This document shows positions 3 through 56,301 of a stretch of 64,000 nt of DNA, piece by piece (the first letter of the stretch is position 1; every line of letters starts with the position of its first letter). Source of the stretch: Acidovorax sp. (GTDB lineage: Bacteria > Pseudomonadota > Gammaproteobacteria > Burkholderiales > Burkholderiaceae_C); the NCBI RefSeq assembly GCF_027492855.1, contig NZ_JAPUDY010000051.1, forward strand, positions 185,963 through 249,962, read 5' to 3'. Position numbers and translations under genes: made by a program. The notes beneath the pieces are model-generated. The model was not told the origin of the DNA. It saw only the letters and a list, made by a program, of their open reading frames with translations, and did not search any database.

Positions 3-470
3 GGCATCTTGAACGAAGGCCACTACGGCGAGCGCGTGGCGCTGCTGCCTTACCGCACCGACGAGCTGGTGCTGGTGGTGCCCACCGGCCACGCGCTGGC
101 GCGGCGCAAGTCCGTGCGGCTGGCCGACGCCCTGCCCTTTGACTTTGTGGGCGCACACCCCAACAGCGCCATCAACAACCAGTTGACCCGCGCGGCCTCC
201 GAGGCGGGCCTGCCGCTGCGCCTGCGCATGCAGGTCACCAGCTACGACGCGCTGTGCCTCATGGTCAACGCGGGCCTGGGCGTGGGCGTGTTGCCGCGCG
301 GCAGCGCCGCGCTGTACCAGGGCACGCTCGCCATCCGCACCATCACGCTGAACGAGCCCTGGGCGCAGCGGCGGCTGGCGCTGTGTGTGCGGTCCGAAGA
401 ATCGCTCTCCAGCGTCGCCCGGCTGCTGGTGGAGCACCTGCGCGCGCAGCCGCCGGTGCCGTCGCCATGA
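3..470 (+). CDS. LysR-family transcriptional regulator, C-terminal fragment
   Basis: The reading frame is open from the first bases of the window, so the gene starts upstream and its N-terminal winged-helix domain is not visible. The 155 visible residues resemble the effector-binding lobe of LysR-type regulators: an N-terminal stretch with the LVLVVPTGHALA strand, and a VNAGLGVGVLPRG segment near the C-terminus that is typical of the second lobe. The stop codon overlaps the start of earP in an ATGA, so the two are translationally coupled or at least packed together. The regulated genes cannot be told from this fragment. Confidence 0.85.
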   Translation, partial: GILNEGHYGERVALLPYRTDELVLVVPTGHALARRKSVRLADALPFDFVGAHPNSAINNQLTRAASEAGLPLRLRMQVTSYDALCLMVNAGLGVGVLPRGSAALYQGTLAIRTITLNEPWAQRRLALCVRSEESLSSVARLLVEHLRAQPPVPSP

Positions 471-1630
471 GCCACGCCCTTCCCGCCCTGCAATGGGACG
501 TGTTCTGCCGCGTGATCGACAACTTTGGCGACATCGGCGTGTGCTGGCGCCTGGTGGCGCAACTGGCGGGGCAAGGCCAGCGCGTGCGCCTGTGGGTGGA
601 CGACGCCTCGGCCCTGGCCTGGATGGCGCCCACGGGCTGCCCCGGCGTGGAGTTGCGCGCCTGGGGATCGCCGCCGCCCGGCCCCCACGAGCCCGCGCCC
701 GACGTGATGGTGGAGGCTTTCGGCTGCGAAATTGCTCCTGAATTCATAGCTTATAGCACTTACCAATCAAGCGCCAGAGGCCAAAATAACCCGAAACCCG
801 TCTGGATCAACCTGGAATACCTGTCGGCAGAGGGCTATGTGGAGCGCAACCACAAGCTGTCCTCGCTGCTCTCATCCGGCCCCGGCGCAGGCAGGACACG
901 CTGGTTTTTTTACCCCGGCTTCACGCACAACACGGGCGGGCTGCTGCGGGAGCCCGATCTGATGGCCCGGCGCGAGGTATTTGACCGCACCGCCTGGCGC
1001 GCGGCGCACACAGCGGCTTACGGGCTGAGCGACGGCGACAGCGACGGTAACGCAGGCCAGCGCTGGGTTTCGCTGTTCTGCTACGAACCCGCCGCCCTGC
1101 CCGAGCTGCTGCACCACGCCCAGGCGCAGCCCACACAGCTGCTGGTCACGCCGGGCCGCCCCGCGGCGGCGGTGCGGGCAGCGCTGGGTGGCAACGACAT
1201 TGTTTTAGACAAAAACGGCCCCCAGCGCTTGTTGGATAATCGTGAGCAGCTATCAATTTCATACCTACCCCACCGCCCGCAGCCCGCGTTTGACGAGATG
1301 CTGTGGGCCTGCGACTTGAACATGGTGCGTGGCGAGGACTCGCTGGTGCGGGCGCTCTGGGCCGGGCAGGCGCTGGTGTGGCACATCTACCCACAACACG
1401 ACAACGCCCACCACGACAAACTTTGGGCGTTTCTGGACTGGCTGCAGGCCCCCGCGTCGCTGCGGCAGTTCCATGCCACCTGGAACGGGCTCAACGCCAC
1501 GCCCCTGCAATGGCCCAGCGACGACACGCTGGCCGAATGGGCCGCCTGCATCGCCGCCGCCCGTGCGCGCCTGCTGACGCAGGACAACCTCGTCGCACAG
1601 CTTTTGGGCTTTGTCGCCGAAAAACGGTAA
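467..1630 (+). CDS. earP: EF-P arginine rhamnosyltransferase EarP, carrying two repeat-derived insertions
   Basis: EarP (DUF2331 family, GT-B fold) transfers rhamnose from dTDP-beta-L-rhamnose to Arg32 of elongation factor P, which lets EF-P rescue ribosomes stalled at polyproline. The start is the ATG of an ATGA overlap with the upstream gene. The product is 387 aa. It opens with [20 protein letters not shown], the family N-terminus. [10 protein letters not shown] and the C-terminal block [13 protein letters not shown]...WHIYPQ are the conserved donor-site regions. Two stretches, about residues 89-107 and 247-265, are encoded by copies of the dispersed palindromic repeat. They have lower GC and lie outside the recognisable conserved blocks. 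The target gene efp follows directly, which supports the assignment. Confidence 0.95.
731..787 (+). repeat. Dispersed AGCGCT-type repeat, copy 1, inside earP
   Basis: A 57-bp stretch reads TTGCTCCTGAATTCATAGC, then a decayed palindrome (TAGCACT...AAGCGCC), then AGAGGCCAAAA. It follows the same order of modules as the intergenic copies near 43461 and 54085. It is AT-richer than the rest of earP and is read in frame without stops, giving about 19 residues ([19 protein letters not shown]). Confidence 0.8.
1205..1260 (-). repeat. Dispersed AGCGCT-type repeat, copy 2, inside earP, inverted
   Basis: Read on the minus strand, this stretch gives ATTGATAGCTGCTC, a degenerate GCGCTT arm, then CAACAAGCGCTGG and GGCCGTTTTTGTC. 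That is the same module order as the other copies. In earP it is read in frame in the opposite sense to copy 1 and encodes [18 protein letters not shown]. Confidence 0.72.
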
Positions 1631-1793: not shown

Positions 1794-2348
1794 ATGAAAA
1801 TCGCTCAAGAAATCCGCGCCGGCAACGTCATCATGCACGGCAAGGACCCCATGGTGGTCCTGAAGACCGAATACGCCCGTGGCGGCCGCGGCGCCGCCAC
1901 CGTGCGCATGAAGCTCAAGAGCCTGATCGGCAACTTCGGCACCGAAAACGTGTTCAAGGCCGACGACAAGATCGACAACGTGATCCTGGACAAGAAGGAG
2001 TGCACCTACTCCTACTTCGCCGACCCCATGTACGTGTGCATGGACACCGAGTTCAACCAGTACGAAGTCGAAGCCGAAAACATGGGCGACGCGCTGAACT
2101 ACCTGGAAGACGGCATGGCCGTTGAAGTGGTGTTCTACGACGGCAAGGCCATCTCGGTCGAACTGCCCACCAGCGTCGAGCGCGAAATCACCTGGACGGA
2201 ACCCGCCGTCAAGGGCGATACCTCCGGCAAGGTCATGAAGCCCGCCAAGATCGCCACCGGCTTCGAAGTGCCCGTGCCCCTGTTCGTCAGCCAAGGCGAC
2301 AAGATCGAAATCGACACCCGCACCGGCGAATACCGCAAGCGCGTCTGA
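1794..2348 (+). CDS. efp: Elongation factor P, Arg32 type
   Basis: EF-P binds between the ribosomal P and E sites and promotes peptide-bond formation at proline runs. The 184-aa product has the standard three-domain length (KOW-like N-terminal domain followed by two OB domains). The tip of the domain I loop reads ARGGRGA, with arginine at residue 32. This is the residue rhamnosylated by EarP. E. coli-type EF-P has lysine 34 there instead. The adjacent earP gene is the matching modifying enzyme. No strong Shine-Dalgarno precedes the ATG, but start and length match the family. A strong terminator follows the stop. Confidence 0.97.
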
Positions 2349-2367: not shown

Positions 2368-2399
2368 AAAAAAAGGCTTCCCTCGGGAAGCCTTTTTTA
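2368..2399. terminator. Bidirectional intrinsic terminator between efp and rimO
   Basis: AAGGCTTCC, a CTC loop and GGGAAGCCTT form a perfect stem, with an A-run on the left and a T-run on the right. It can end efp transcripts on the plus strand and rimO transcripts on the minus strand. Confidence 0.9.
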
Positions 2400-2412
2400 T
2401 TGGTATTTTTGG

Positions 2413-2461
2413 GGTCTAGCGCTTGATGGATAAGCGCTACAAGCTATTTAAATAATAGCAA
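2413..2461 (-). repeat. Dispersed AGCGCT-type repeat, copy 3
   Basis: TAGCGCTTGATGGATAAGCG is the palindromic core, followed by CTACAAGCTATTTAAATAATAGCAA. On the minus strand it reads TTGCTATTATTTAAATAGCT then the core. It lies between the bidirectional terminator and the rimO stop codon. Confidence 0.88.
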
Positions 2462-2473
2462 AACCCTGCACAA

Positions 2474-3865
2474 TCACACCGGCACAGCCACCAGATCGTG
2501 CCCCTGCGTGCCCACAATGCGCGCCTTGGTGAACTCGCCCACCTTCAATTGTTTGCTGATCTTCTCGGGTGGCAGCAGATGCACCACGCCGTCGATCTCA
2601 GGCGCGTCGGCATAGCTGCGGCCCGTGCCGCCCTTGCGGCCCATGGCGGGGGCCGAGTCCACCAGCACCTGCATGGTGGCGCCCACGCGGCGCTGCAGCT
2701 TGGCGATGGACACCTCTTCGGCCACAGCCATGAAGCGGGCGCGGCGCTCTTCGCGCACCTCCACCGGCAGCATGCCGGGCAGCTCGTTGGCAGCAGCCCC
2801 GTGAACGTCGCTGTAGGCAAAACAGCCCGCACGGTCGATCTGCGCCTCACGCACAAAATCGAGCAGATGCTGGAATTCTTCTTCCGTCTCGCCAGGGAAA
2901 CCCGCGATGAAAGTGCTGCGAATGACCAGCTCAGGGCAGATCTCGCGCCAGCGCTGGATGCGCTCCAGGTTGCGCTCGCCGCTGGCGGGGCGCTTCATCC
3001 GCTTCAAAACGTCGGGGTGGCTGTGCTGCAGGGGCACATCCAGGTAGGGCAACACGCGGCCTGTAGCCATGAGGGGCAGCACATCGTCCACGCTGGGGTA
3101 CGGGTACACGTAGTGCAGGCGCACCCAGGCGCCATACGGCTCGGCAATCTCGCCCAGGGCCTGCACCAATTCGAGCATGCGGGTCTTGACGGGCTTGCCG
3201 TCCCAGAAGCCGGTGCGGTATTTCACGTCCACGCCATAGGCCGAGGTGTCCTGGCTGATGACCAGCAACTCTTTCACGCCGCCTTCAAACAAGGCCTTGG
3301 CCTCGCTCAGCACGTCGCCAATGGGGCGCGAGACGAGGTCGCCACGCATCGAGGGGATGATGCAGAAGGTGCAGCGGTGATTGCAGCCCTCGCTGATCTT
3401 GAGATACGCGTAGTGCTTGGGCGTGAGCTTGATGCCCGCGATGCCGAAGCCGCCGGGCACCAGGTCCACGAACGGGTCGTGCGGCTTGGGCAGGTTCAGA
3501 TGGACGGCATCCATCACCTCCTGCGTGGCATGCGGGCCTGTCACGGCCAGCACGCTGGGGTGCATCTGGCGCACCATGTTGCCGCCATCCTCGCCCGCGC
3601 GCGCGCCCAGGCAGCCGGTGACGATGACCTTGCCGTTTTCGGCCAGCGCCTCGCCAATCGTGTCCAGGCTTTCCTTGACGGCATCGTCGATGAAGCCGCA
3701 GGTATTGACGATGACCAGGTCTGCGCCCTGGAAGGTCTTGGAGGTTTCGTAACCCTCAGCGCTCAGTTGCGTGAGGATGAGTTCGGAGTCGGTCAGCGCC
3801 TTGGGGCAGCCCAGGCTGACGAATCCGACTTTGGGTGTTTTCGTGGGGGAGAGTGTTTCGCTCAT
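2474..3865 (-). CDS. rimO: Ribosomal protein S12 methylthiotransferase RimO
   Basis: This radical-SAM enzyme adds a methylthio group to the beta-carbon of the conserved aspartate of ribosomal protein S12. The 463-aa product has the UPF0004 domain with its three cysteines (SLGCPK, VNTCGF, VTGCLG), then the radical-SAM cluster motif CNHRCTFC (CX3CX2C) near residue 160. A C-terminal TRAM-like segment ends the protein. The start ATG has no clear Shine-Dalgarno and sits 8 bp after a GACAAT hexamer, so the mRNA may be nearly leaderless. The gene is alone between efp and phaR. Confidence 0.96.
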
Positions 3866-16513: not shown

Positions 16514-18595
<2,082 letters not shown>

Positions 18596-34925: not shown

Positions 34926-34946
34926 CACCGCAGAATATGAATCAAA

Positions 34947-35000
34947 TTGGCAACTAGCGCTTATTCAACAAGCGCTACTAGCTATCAAAATCATAGTATT
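34947..35000 (-). repeat. Dispersed AGCGCT-type repeat, copy 4
   Basis: TTGGCAACTAGCGCTTATTC, then AACAAGCGCTACTAGCTATC and AAAATCATAGTATTT. The palindromic core AGCGCTTATTCAACAAGCGCT is well preserved. It fills the gap between mfd and the next gene and ends 3 bp before that gene's start codon, so it forms its leader. Confidence 0.9.
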
Positions 35001-35003
35001 TAG

Positions 35004-35678
35004 ATGGAAACTGCGCTGGCCCTGATCGCCCTTGCTGCTGCATTGGCGGCCCGCCCCTGGCGCCTGCTGGCCAGCCGCCAGCCTTTGGCGCATGAAACGC
35101 ACGGCGCCCCCGCCGCGCTGTGGACGCCGCTGCTCGCCACCCTGGTTCTGCTGCCTTGGGCCTGGGCCCTGCCCACGCTGCACCACATGCCGCTGCAACT
35201 GCAGTGGTCGGGCGCCTGCCTGGTGCTGCTCATGCTGGGCTGGCCGCTGGCCGTGCCCACGCTGCTGGCGGTGGGCGCCATCGCCGCACTGGTATCGCCG
35301 GGCCTGGGGTGGCGGGATGCGCTGGGCATGGCCGTCTGGCAGGGCGTGGTGCCCGCCACGCTGGCATTGTTGCTGGGCGTGGCACTGCGCCGCCTGTCGG
35401 GCGCACAGGCGCTGGCTGGCGTGCGCGCCTTCGTCTATGTGCTGGGCCGGGGCTTCCTCGGCTCGGCGCTGTGCCTGTTCGTAGCGGGCACGCTGTCGCA
35501 ATGGAGCGGCCACACGCTGCCGGGCGTGGGCGACCAGCTCTCGCTGGTGGCGCGCTGGTTGATGGCCTGGGGCGATGCGGTGGTCACCGGCATGCTGTGC
35601 GCCATATTCGTGGCGTTCAAACCAGAGTGGCTGGCGACTTGGTCAGACGACCTCTACCTGCATTCAAAAAAGGGTTGA
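35004..35678 (+). CDS. CbiM-like (COG3235-type) integral membrane protein
   Basis: A 224-aa hydrophobic protein with about six transmembrane segments. The C-terminal block GDAVVTGMLCAIFVAFKPEWLATWSDDLYL fits a family annotated in other genomes as an energy-coupling-factor permease-like protein. It is distantly related to CbiM-type cobalt/nickel transport subunits. No ATPase or EcfT partner is adjacent, so transport is unproven. Both ends touch repeat copies: copy 4 is its leader, and the last codons and TGA stop lie in copy 5. The assignment is from remembered family pattern. Confidence 0.6.
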   Translation: METALALIALAAALAARPWRLLASRQPLAHETHGAPAALWTPLLATLVLLPWAWALPTLHHMPLQLQWSGACLVLLMLGWPLAVPTLLAVGAIAALVSPGLGWRDALGMAVWQGVVPATLALLLGVALRRLSGAQALAGVRAFVYVLGRGFLGSALCLFVAGTLSQWSGHTLPGVGDQLSLVARWLMAWGDAVVTGMLCAIFVAFKPEWLATWSDDLYLHSKKG

Positions 35679-35722
35679 AGCGCTTGTTCAGAAAGCGCAA
35701 GCAGCTATCAAAAGAGGAGCAA
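35665..35722 (-). repeat. Dispersed AGCGCT-type repeat, copy 5, supplying a stop codon
   Basis: On the minus strand it reads TTGCTCCTCTTTTGATAGCT, then GCTTGCGCTTTCTGAACAAG, then CGCTTCAACCCTTTTTT. On the plus strand, the final Lys-Lys-Gly codons and TGA of the membrane-protein gene lie in its left end. Confidence 0.85.
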
Positions 35723-35842
35723 TCAGCGGCGAGGTGCATCTAACGCGTGACCAGCGCCGCGCGCGATGGAGCGTGCGATGCGCTCGCAGTCCTTGGCGAT
35801 CGCAAGCGCTGTGCAGAGGGCTGCGGCAGCGCCTGCCCTTAT

Positions 35843-42881: not shown

Positions 42882-43478
42882 ATGTTCGCGCCCCTCCAGG
42901 ACCGCATCCACCGCGCTTGGCAAGCCTTGCGCATCGGCTGGAAGCGGCACCTCGCCAGCCTCGCGCTGGCCTGGATCGCCATCGTGGCCGTGGACACCTG
43001 GCGCACACGCGATCTGCCCCAAGGCCCCGCGCCCGATGTGCCCCTGGTGATGGCCCCCACCCAACCTGGCTTGCAACAACACACCACCCTTGCACAGTGG
43101 CGCGCCCAGCACCCCGGCCAAGCCGTGGCCGTGCACTTTTGGGCCGAATGGTGCACTGTGTGCAAACTGGAAGAGCCCAGCATTGCCAGCCTGTCCACCG
43201 GGTGGCCCGTGCTGGGCGTGGCCATGCAGTCTGGCAATGCAGAGCGGGTGGCGCAGGTGCAGCGCCAGCGCGGCATGGCCTGGCCCACTGCGGTGGACCC
43301 GCAGGGCGCCCTGTCACGCAGTTGGGGGGTGCGTGCCGTGCCCGCGCTGGTGGTCATCGACGCGCAGGGCCAGGTGCGGTTTGCCACCTCGGGCTACACG
43401 CCGGAATGGTCCATGCGGCTGCGGCTGTGGTGGGCGCAGGCCATGCCGCAGTGGCGCACATTGCTACAAAAACAATAG
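42882..43478 (+). CDS. Membrane-anchored thioredoxin-like protein disulfide oxidoreductase (ScsD-like)
   Basis: A 198-aa protein with one N-terminal transmembrane anchor ([18 protein letters not shown]) and a periplasmic thioredoxin fold. The redox motif CTVC is in [20 protein letters not shown], followed by cis-proline [11 protein letters not shown]. The WCxVCKLEE form is that of ScsD/TlpA-like disulfide reductases. Substrates are unknown. Help with the periplasmic metalloenzyme encoded just downstream is possible. The last codons and stop come from repeat copy 6. Confidence 0.85.
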
Positions 43479-43518
43479 CTGCTTGCGCTTATTGAATAAG
43501 CGCTACAGGCCATTTTTG
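43461..43518 (+). repeat. Dispersed AGCGCT-type repeat, copy 6, supplying a stop codon
   Basis: TTGCTACAAAAACAATAGCT, then GCTTGCGCTTATTGAATAAG, then CGCTACAGGCCATTTTTGCC. The TAG of the TAGCT module is the stop codon of the thioredoxin-like gene, whose final residues Leu-Leu-Gln-Lys-Gln are read from the repeat. Confidence 0.92.
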
Positions 43519-43626
43519 CCCTTTTTCTTTGCGCTGCACGCCGCATCGCATCTTTTGGCGCAGATCTTCAAGACCCGCCGCCCCTGTCTTTGCACACTGG
43601 CCTCCACACCAACACCGGAGGCCCAC

Positions 43627-46232: not shown

Positions 46233-47258
46233 ATGCAAGACTTTGCCAGCGCCGCCATGGTCCGCCTGCTGGTGCGCGCCATGCGCGCGCAGGGCCTGAA
46301 CCCACCGCCGCCCCCGCCAGGCCTGGACGGGCTGCAAGACAGCCATGTGCCGCTGGCCTACAAACGCAGCGTGGTCGAAGCCGTGTTGCACCAGGGCGGC
46401 CTGGGCACGCTGCTGCAACTGGCGCAGCGGGTGGACCTGCTGGCGGGCGACCCGGTGCACCGCGCCCTGCTAGGCGCGACCAGCGTGCCCGAGCTGATGG
46501 CGCGCTGGCAGCGGCTGGAGCGCTACGTGCACTCGCGCCATCAGGTCAGCATCAAGGCCAACACCCCCGGCACCCTGGCGCTGCACCACCACGCGCGCCC
46601 CGGTGTGCTGGAAGAGCCCCACCCCACCGAAAGCCTGGCTGTGCTCGGCGTGCTGATGGGCGCCATCCACGCCATGGGCGTCCGGGGTCTGCAGGTGGAC
46701 ATCGGTGCCCCAGAGGCCCCAGGCCCGCGCGTGAACCTGCGGGGCAATGCCCCAGCCCCCACCCCGGCCGAGCTGCACGCGCAACTGGCACCGCTGGCCG
46801 CGCAAGGGCAGATGGGCCACTGGACCTTGCGCTGGGGAATGCACCAAGACGCAGGCAAAGCCCCCATCGCCCCTGCCCTGGAGCCTCCGCCCACCCATCT
46901 GTGCGACGCCCTGCCCTGGCCCCCCCTGGCGCACCGGCTAGCGCGCCATGTGCTGTGCGACCCGGCAGCGCAACACACGGTGGATGCGCTGGCGGAGCAT
47001 GCAGGCCTGGCCCGCCGCAGCCTGCAGCGGGCCCTCTCCGAAGGTGGCCTGAGCTGCCGCCACATCGTCACCGAGGCCCGGGCGCGCATGGCCGCACAGT
47101 GGCTGCTGGACAGCCCCCACGGCCTGGCAGAAATCGGGTTTGCCTGCGGTTTTGCCGACCAACCTCACTTCACGCGCGAGTTCGCCCGCCATGTGGGCCT
47201 GACACCGGCACGCTACCGGCAGGCCTTTGCAGGGGCCACGGTGCTCCCTGATAGATAG
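46233..47258 (+). CDS. AraC-family transcriptional regulator
   Basis: A 341-aa regulator. An N-terminal region of about 235 residues does not resemble a simple cupin and is probably an Arabinose_bd-like domain (LAYKRSVVEAVLHQGGLGTLLQLAQRVD). It is followed by the two-unit helix-turn-helix (VDALAEHAGLARRSLQRALS and GLAEIGFACGFADQPHFTREFARHVGLTPARYR). It is on the same strand as the molybdenum hydroxylase and 30 bp after it, so that operon is its most likely target. The TAG stop falls at the left edge of repeat copy 7. Confidence 0.87.
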   Translation: MQDFASAAMVRLLVRAMRAQGLNPPPPPPGLDGLQDSHVPLAYKRSVVEAVLHQGGLGTLLQLAQRVDLLAGDPVHRALLGATSVPELMARWQRLERYVHSRHQVSIKANTPGTLALHHHARPGVLEEPHPTESLAVLGVLMGAIHAMGVRGLQVDIGAPEAPGPRVNLRGNAPAPTPAELHAQLAPLAAQGQMGHWTLRWGMHQDAGKAPIAPALEPPPTHLCDALPWPPLAHRLARHVLCDPAAQHTVDALAEHAGLARRSLQRALSEGGLSCRHIVTEARARMAAQWLLDSPHGLAEIGFACGFADQPHFTREFARHVGLTPARYRQAFAGATVLPDR

Positions 47259-47313
47259 CTACAAATTTAATAGCTAAAAGCCTATACTGATCAAGCGCAA
47301 GCGGCCATTTTTA
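47251..47313 (+). repeat. Dispersed AGCGCT-type repeat, copy 7, between convergent genes
   Basis: ATAGATAGCTACAAATTTAA, then TAGCTAAAAGCCTATACTGA, then TCAAGCGCAAGCGGCCATTT and TTATT. The left arm is decayed and the right arm is partly intact. It spans the whole gap between the AraC gene, whose stop is at its left edge, and nsrR, whose TAA is read from its right end on the minus strand. Confidence 0.82.
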
Positions 47314-47853
47314 TTCAATATCCGATGCCGCCGATGGCAAGCCTGCCACCAGCAAGCGCTGGCGCGGCGTGGCGCCGTTGCGTGGCAGCTCCACGATGGG
47401 CAGCAGGGCCCGCAAAGCGCCCCCTCCCGCTGATGCAGGCCCGGCAGAAGGGGCCATCAGATCCTCCAGCGTCACACCATCCAGCACTGCCAGATAGGCC
47501 TGCATGGCCTGCCAGAGCACGCCTTTGAGGCGGCAATGGCTGCTCAGGCGGCATTGGTTGGTGGTGGGGTCAAAACACTCCACCAGGTTGAAGTCGGTCT
47601 CTGTGGCACGCACCACCGTGCCGATGTTGATGGCAGAAGCGGGCAGCATCAGCCGCATGCCGCCGCCCCGGCCCCGGGTGGTCTCCAGCAGGCCCTGTGC
47701 GGACAACTGCTGCACGATCTTCATCAAATGGCTGCGCGAAATGCCGTAGCCCTCTGCCACCTCGGTGATGGTGACGGGCTGGGCCCGCCCCTCTGTGGCT
47801 GCGCAGTACATGAGCACGCGCAGGGTGTAGTCGGTCCATTGGGTCAGTCGCAT
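47311..47853 (-). CDS. nsrR: Nitric-oxide-sensitive Rrf2-family repressor NsrR
   Basis: NsrR is an Fe-S repressor that is inactivated by nitric oxide. The 180-aa product has an N-terminal winged helix (MRLTQWTDYTLRVLMYCA, TITEVAEGYGISRSHLMKIV, TTRGRGGGMRL) and the three-cysteine cluster motif ECFDPTTNQCRLSSHCRLK that is typical of NsrR. It has a longer C-terminal tail than average. It is divergent from ric and the truncated-haemoglobin gene, with NsrR-like sequences between them. Its stop codon is part of repeat copy 7. Confidence 0.92.
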   Translation of the reverse strand: MRLTQWTDYTLRVLMYCAATEGRAQPVTITEVAEGYGISRSHLMKIVQQLSAQGLLETTRGRGGGMRLMLPASAINIGTVVRATETDFNLVECFDPTTNQCRLSSHCRLKGVLWQAMQAYLAVLDGVTLEDLMAPSAGPASAGGGALRALLPIVELPRNGATPRQRLLVAGLPSAASDIE

Positions 47854-54084: not shown

Positions 54085-54146
54085 AATTGCTATAAAAACA
54101 GGAGCTTCTTGCGCTTATCTATCAAGCGCTAGATGCCATTTTTATC
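54085..54146 (+). repeat. Dispersed AGCGCT-type repeat, copy 8
   Basis: AATTGCTATAAAAACAGGAG, then CTTCTTGCGCTTATCTATCA, then AGCGCTAGATGCCATTTTTA. Both arms of the core are well preserved. It lies between the exonuclease gene and the convergent second fadH. Confidence 0.92.
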
Positions 54147-54172
54147 TCAATTTTTCAAACCAAACCGCCGAC

Positions 54173-56301
<2,129 letters not shown>

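Follow-up and report, generated by a model that had tools for sequence, protein, structure and literature searches.

The earP locus and its two element copies

The window, by which we mean the whole 64-kb stretch of Acidovorax DNA analyzed here, contains earP, encoding the arginine rhamnosyltransferase of elongation factor P (EF-P), followed by efp, encoding the substrate of that enzyme. Two segments of earP are in-frame copies, in opposite orientations, of a palindromic element that is found at six further positions in the window. The features are as follows.

467–1630, plus strand: earP, EF-P arginine rhamnosyltransferase, 387 aa (TIGR03837, E = 4.5e-125; PDB EarP chains)
731–787, plus strand: site 1, in-frame element copy in sense orientation, 19-residue peptide (profile match; repeat pairing; model helix 91–103)
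731–751, plus strand: site 1 core, consisting of the left palindrome ATTGCTCCTGAATTCATAGCT and conserved between genera (codon and orthologue comparison)
1205–1267, minus strand: site 2, in-frame element copy in antisense orientation, peptide of about 21 residues (profile match; model loop and strand)
1247–1263, minus strand: site 2 core, reading CAGCTATCAATTTCATA on the coding strand and conserved between genera (codon and orthologue comparison)
1794–2348, plus strand: efp, elongation factor P, substrate of EarP, downstream of earP (family profile match)
2397–2462, minus strand: intergenic element copy between efp and the minus-strand gene at 2474–3865 (profile match)
34936–35000, minus strand: element copy (profile match)
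35658–35723, minus strand: element copy overlapping the 3′ end of the ORF at 35004–35678 (profile match)
43460–43521, plus strand: element copy (profile match)
47255–47316, plus strand: element copy (profile match)
54086–54147, plus strand: element copy (profile match)

The minus-strand gene at 2474–3865 is presumably rimO. The stop codon of the ORF at 35004–35678 falls inside the element copy at 35658–35723. An Rfam scan of the window at gathering thresholds gave tRNA as the sole match, and no family at the element. Elsewhere in the window, the segments 16778–18555 and 54446–56238, about 1.8 kb each and 37.7 kb apart, are 70–84% alike in pieces and appear to be diverged paralogous genes.

We built an HMM from the six window copies, all of which lie outside earP. 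Applied to the window it recovered its six inputs, and matched earP at 731–796 on the plus strand (E = 2e-10) and at 1263–1204 on the minus strand (E = 4.3e-10). A repeat search paired 746–791 with 2402–2447, 80% alike over 46 nt. The proposal of the initial annotation, that a dispersed palindromic element is read in frame inside earP in both orientations, is thus borne out at both sites by independent HMM matches. The ORF 467–1630 is open through both copies, as had also been seen, and the AT-richness remarked on there is evident at third codon positions, where the GC fraction is 0.33–0.56 for site 1 and 0.44–0.67 for site 2, and mostly 0.78–1.0 in the other nine-codon bins of the gene.

The structural claims fared less well. 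In an AlphaFold model of EarP (mean pLDDT 87.9), site 2 forms a low-confidence loop (residues 246–253 and 256–258) followed by a strand (262–266), and site 1 an ordered helix (91–103). Surface loops had been expected for both segments. Site 2 had further been assigned to the linker before the C-terminal half of the protein; the model puts it within that half, after two of its strands and two of its helices, the domain boundary being an interpretation. Nor does each copy simply add some 19 residues. The site-1 stretch from C87 to V112 has 26 residues here, and its equivalent in repeat-poor genomes of the family has 16–27 residues in 34 of 35 cases and 82 in the 35th.

The segments are not conserved in bacteria that lack the repeat. 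In a 60-genome family sample that gave 56 usable EarP genes (three genomes had no match and one a fragment), and with bit scores rounded, none of the 35 genes from repeat-poor genomes reached 10 bits at either site. Among genomes with at least seven repeat matches, 12 of the 21 EarP genes did so at site 1 and 7 of the 21 at site 2. In the EarP of the wider order the site-1 segment is short and canonical (CxLPxxYxxxMA...), as it was in all 15 readable rows of an order-level search that gave 29 loci; P. aeruginosa EarP has the same form. Site 1 accordingly re-encodes an ancestral helix, with a few residues added.

Architecture and abundance of the element

The element is about 57 bp in length. 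An AT-cored palindrome, GCTAT-N7-ATAGC, is followed by a second palindrome, AGCGCTT-N7-AAGCGCT, and then by GGCC and an A/T tract. Using a model made from an alignment of 26 copies, with the earP copies left out, we searched 864 kb (19%) of the source genome (G000) at E up to 0.05. This gave 118 non-overlapping copies, a density of about one per 7 kb; the reversed sequence yielded none. By simple proportion the whole genome would hold roughly 600 copies; another search of the same genome gave at least 150 matches. Across the 98 strong copies AGCT (positions 18–21), GCGCTT (26–31) and GCGC (41–44) are almost invariant, and the left palindrome has a loop of no fixed sequence that is nonetheless nearly all A/T at positions 11–13. 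Each of the 118 copies resembles its closest relative with a median identity of 0.79 and a maximum of 0.93, and only two reach 0.9. Outside full elements the left palindrome occurs alone three times (0–2 in simulations) and the right palindrome not at all. The halves hardly occur without the whole unit, and independent use of either was rejected.

RNA folding z-scores were −1.2, −2.1 and −4.2 for three dispersed copies and 0.19 and 1.70 for those in earP, which fold no better than shuffled sequences, and a search for covariation in the palindromes detected no compensatory changes. We rejected an RNA-level element on these grounds; because both orientations are kept and the folding of the earP copies does not exceed that of shuffles, DNA is the likelier level. 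The spacing of the copies agrees with random placement, which argues against a regular arrangement, and a replichore polarity was rejected since the strand bias leans to minus (26:12 and 31:15) in both of two contigs whose GC skews are opposite. The core pattern occurs in 47 stretches of viral contigs, and one query copy matched two plasmid records. On these counts we take the element to be mainly chromosomal and have set aside a phage or plasmid home.

In-frame copies in other genes

A codon-usage model trained on the source genome was used to score the flanks of the 118 copies. For 26 of them both flanks are coding in one shared frame that is open through the element. A further 5 have a shared frame with a stop, 10 have flanks coding on one strand in differing frames and 11 on different strands; 50 have one coding flank and 16 have none. 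In a genome of a second genus (G015), 96 copies were found in 360 kb at E up to 0.01, with none in the reversed control; 14 of these are in frame and open, and 5 in frame with a stop. Copies in frame and open thus make up between roughly a sixth and a fifth of the total.

Relative to transcription, 17 of the 26 in-frame copies are sense and 9 antisense. Sense frame 0 is used by 13 and antisense frame 1 by 7, and the same two frames are those that the remaining copies most commonly leave open (39 of 92 and 49 of 92, respectively). Three of the 26, including that in Lnt, are weak (E = 0.01–0.03) and so may be chance matches. Outside earP there are 24 in-frame copies, of which 21, in 20 proteins, were scanned with Pfam and 3 were left out. 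The hosts include ComEC, MoeA, DapF, MiaA, NAD synthase (nadE), PRA isomerase, Lnt, an enzyme with a poly(A)-polymerase head (here Cca) and an acyl-CoA dehydrogenase (ACAD), among others. Several of the host proteins are normally essential. An FtsX-like permease gene (L177:16598–19243, contig C8 of the source genome) has two in-frame copies, one sense and one antisense. The ComEC gene (L175:1597–4137, also on contig C8) encodes a DNA uptake channel, a host of interest should the element be a sequence of uptake type.

The earP copies are old and orthologous

Peptides corresponding to the two sites lie at the same two places of earP at loci of Polaromonas, Ottowia, Rhodoferax, Simplicispira, Extensimonas, Diaphorobacter and Comamonas, in a comparison that left out 15 minus-strand rows. 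Since Polaromonas, Rhodoferax and Ottowia have copies at these positions too, they cannot be inserts peculiar to the Acidovorax source strain. With a profile made without earP sequences (E < 0.01), the 80 loci nearest to the EarP of the window gave a match at site 1 in 31, at site 2 in 36 and at one or both in 48; the element is read sense at the first site and antisense at the second. The codons GCT CCT GAA TTC ATA GCT and CTA TCA ATT TCA are identical in the window, in Polaromonas sp. YR568 and in a Rhodoferax MAG.

The loop of site 1 is retained at 0.84 across 33 distant orthologues, compared with 0.38 in the copies of its own genome, and CCTGAATT is present in none of 116 own-genome copies. 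A loop common to the orthologues and not to the copies of the same genome points to descent and not to homogenization, and for the site-1 loop concerted evolution between copies was ruled out. The right half of the element is not kept in distant orthologues (0.45).

Conservation at synonymous sites

For codon comparisons we assembled 102 genes, comprising the 80 nearest EarP loci, 21 genes from family genomes with at least seven matches, and that of the window; 98 of these are non-redundant. In rows of the 98 with the same residue, GCT90 is used in 94% (background 6%), ATA94 in 92% (5%), TCA265 in 86% (4%) and CTA262 in 74% (2%), in a set that leans to repeat-bearing genomes. The core codons are those of the repeat, and not those that the earP genes favor.

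Among orthologues with less than 65% amino acid identity, rare-codon retention is 0.61–0.70 at site 1 and 0.60–0.66 at site 2, compared with 0.07–0.08 in the rest of the gene, the pairwise comparisons being non-independent. The top 12 of 117 columns ranked by this measure all lie within the two sites. The rest of earP is near synonymous saturation, with at most 9–13% of sites unsubstituted at 55–65% identity. The control gene rimO gave a retention of 0.094 (31 of 80 loci usable), and efp gave 0.226 (74 of 80 usable). Column 4 of the efp alignment (around 1803–1805 of the window), close to the start codon, keeps a rare codon at 0.91, with the next column of efp reaching 0.34. Rare-codon conservation can thus have other causes.

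Within-genus comparisons of other hosts gave retention inside and outside the element of 0.74 and 0.18 for Cca, 0.75 and 0.18 for ACAD, and 0.67 and 0.30 for DapF, so that retention at the DNA level is less clear in DapF than in Cca and ACAD. The element scores at least 10 bits in 24 of 30 (Cca), 22 of 30 (ACAD) and 28 of 30 (DapF) genus loci, own genome included.

In Cca the element overlies the motif LTIN(A/S)(M/I)A, which we compared in the best 30 of 60 family genomes by match. Where the genome has at least seven repeat matches the motif is spelled with ACT in 14 of 16, with AAT and ATA in 13 of 16, with ATA in 14 of 16 and with the trailing GCT in 12 of 16. In genomes with 0–1 matches, ACT or ATA is found in 0 of 14 and the terminal GCT in 0 of 14. 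Two repeat-bearing genomes (G020 and G047) nevertheless spell the motif in the ordinary way. This respelling of a universal motif indicates that synonymous change produced or preserved part of the element. The loop behind the motif is usually longer in repeat-bearing genomes, and there is a net gain in length relative to repeat-free orthologues in ACAD (L354–L356 and L358–L359) and likewise in Cca.

Gain and loss across genomes

The element is common in part of the family and nearly absent outside it. Match counts per genome are lower bounds where they reach 89 or 150, depending on the analysis, and filters vary. A match was found in 28 of 60 genomes of the family sample (own genome included), 7 of them with at least 89 matches. 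The order sample gave matches in 2 of 60, namely the own genome and, out of 58 genomes from other families, one with a single weak match.

The presence of the earP cores is associated with repeat content. We surveyed 79 genomes, after removal of two duplicates, classing as repeat-rich those with at least 20 matches. The site-1 core was found in 27 of the 33 repeat-rich genomes and the site-2 core in 26; 32 have one or both, some retaining one site only. Neither core is present in 42 of the 46 repeat-poor genomes, and the four with a core have 1, 7, 11 and 16 matches; reversed genes gave 0 of 79. Comamonas testosteroni (L101), with 92 matches and neither core, is a clear exception.

Absences of the cores are nested in core-bearing groups, in the group of Root219, A1169 and A. 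soli S00198, in the P. citrulli group, in Verminephrobacter and in G044, on a tree with 15 of its 76 inner branches well supported and many weak. A tree-based test on five independent pairs from the well-supported branches gave about four in one direction and none or 0.1 in the opposite direction, with a median p of 0.125 (range 0.06–1 for site 1 and 0.06–0.375 for site 2). Three repeat-poor genomes (L073, L077 and L090) are nested among core-bearing Acidovorax relatives and have an EarP segment of the repeat-free type (EIPEPFLA in L073). The segment in this group is not a decayed copy.

A probable DNA-level signal within coding sequence

The two segments of earP are copies, read in frame, of a chromosomal DNA element some 57 bp long and specific to the family. 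We think it probable that this element is recognized in trans and kept at the level of DNA. The element would be a double-stranded site for a putative trans-acting factor, which could be a chromosome-binding protein or part of an uptake- or conversion-type drive, and would be maintained by selection or by that drive. Host proteins would be kept in frame and respelled to accommodate it, and the peptide would be a mere passenger, an ancestral helix at site 1 and a floppy loop and strand at site 2. If the factor were lost from a lineage, the copies would vanish genome-wide, coding copies included. The net gains in ACAD and Cca favor an inserted origin for at least the right half, and the respelled left half favors later adaptation. 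By extrapolation, hundreds of double-palindrome sites under such maintenance might respell or extend more than 100 proteins per genome, and loss of the system would erase them; for this broader statement we judge the chances to be even.

The initial annotation saw here the insertion of a non-coding palindromic element, and the element is indeed in frame, but the notion of an additive insert tolerated as extra peptide did not hold. Passive insertion of that kind fits poorly, since the copies are old and found across genera, the left palindrome lies over ancestral positions and synonymous sites are kept. In its general form, a selfish palindromic insertion of the Rickettsia type would survive where it is in frame and harmless, with a neutral peptide and unconstrained DNA. 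Many conserved genes do hold in-frame copies, in several frames, and ACAD and Cca have gained length. This explanation seems unlikely to us, because rare codons are retained far above expectation, the retention figures for earP weighing particularly against it, because the left palindrome overlies ancestral residues in Cca, and because just 2 of 118 copies are at least 90% like another.

We likewise hold it improbable that a DNA uptake or recombination system recognizes the element, with transformation bias keeping and spreading copies, those in genes included. Such a drive would account for a DNA-level, orientation-independent, dispersed, in-gene and clade-specific sequence that is lost genome-wide in some lineages. 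At about one per 7 kb, however, the element greatly exceeds the known motifs of this kind in length and is far less frequent than they are, and it is a composite unit whose halves are hardly found alone.

There is very little likelihood that these are clusters of rare codons retained for translational pausing or mRNA structure. The retained codons are rare, and the start-proximal efp column is kept too, but the particular codons are those found in the dispersed repeat, high retention extends to copies read antisense or in a different frame (earP site 2, DapF), and the RNA of the earP copies folds no better than shuffles. That ordinary protein sequence resembles the repeat by chance can be dismissed for practical purposes; although the left half of site 1 encodes residues near the ancestral ones, the E-values, the reversed controls (0 copies; 0 of 79 genes) and the link to genome repeat content all stand against it.

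Palindromic repeats in coding sequence have mostly been regarded as tolerated selfish DNA. In-gene copies that are alike across genera, where other synonymous sites are near saturation, point to a DNA-level function or drive. If recognition in trans is correct, a chromosome-level DNA code shapes protein sequence, including loops, helices and even universal motifs, and this may be a tractable system for learning how a non-coding signal constrains proteins. It predicts a recognition factor whose gain and loss could be traced between related lineages, with Acidovorax radicis versus the Root219 group and Paracidovorax valerianellae versus P. citrulli as contrast pairs. It also calls for caution with the proteins of Comamonadaceae, whose unusual loops and synonymous sites may be due to a genome-wide motif rather than to what the protein does.

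Relation to known repeats

The closest known kind is the Rickettsia palindromic elements (RPE), which together with the beta-proteobacterial repeat element (BRE) are the nearest described in the literature searched. RPE are dispersed palindromic repeats of about 105–150 bp, found in frame inside conserved protein genes as well as between genes (PMC2229807, PMC10969869). Our element resembles RPE in being palindromic, in frame in unrelated genes (26 of 118 copies in the source genome and 14 of 96 in G015) and also intergenic. It differs in its length of about 57 bp, its two-palindrome unit, its presence across genera of GC-rich betaproteobacteria and the constraint on its synonymous sites. BRE is described as a repeat of Bordetella and Comamonadaceae of about 90 bp, with a mean of 69% GC in Bordetella, at most 29 repeats per genome and some copies in coding sequences (PMC3110155). 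By that description the present element is shorter, has an A/T-rich left loop and is far more numerous. The literature titles and abstract openings searched, a coverage mostly without subscription papers, held no description of the element, and six exact 14–16-mers of it were absent from all paper texts searched.

The uptake sequences of Neisseria (DUS) and Haemophilus (USS) are DNA-level, orientation-independent motifs dispersed through the genome and within genes, and are shorter and denser than our element. The element is like them in being kept at the DNA level inside genes in both orientations, and unlike them in being longer and sparser. A MITE would be expected to show recent near-identical copies, which are missing here (the median identity to the closest copy is 0.79, and two of the 118 reach 0.9). 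It would further be expected to have terminal inverted repeats, a target-site duplication and a partner transposase; for the last of these, Y1_Tnp does not separate repeat-rich from repeat-poor genomes.

REP sequences and BIMEs, with their RAYT proteins, are short palindromic repeats present in many copies and mostly extragenic. Our element is similarly short, palindromic and multicopy, and one Y1_Tnp protein is present in the source genome, but the element lies close to Y1_Tnp at one of four loci examined and Y1_Tnp also occurs in repeat-poor genomes. As a candidate trans factor it was present in all 26 genomes searched, whether repeat-rich or repeat-poor, and was rejected as the discriminating factor since its presence is irrespective of repeat number. 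The Y1_Tnp (RAYT-like) protein of the source genome has 234 aa and is encoded at L393:4432–5136 (contig C72).
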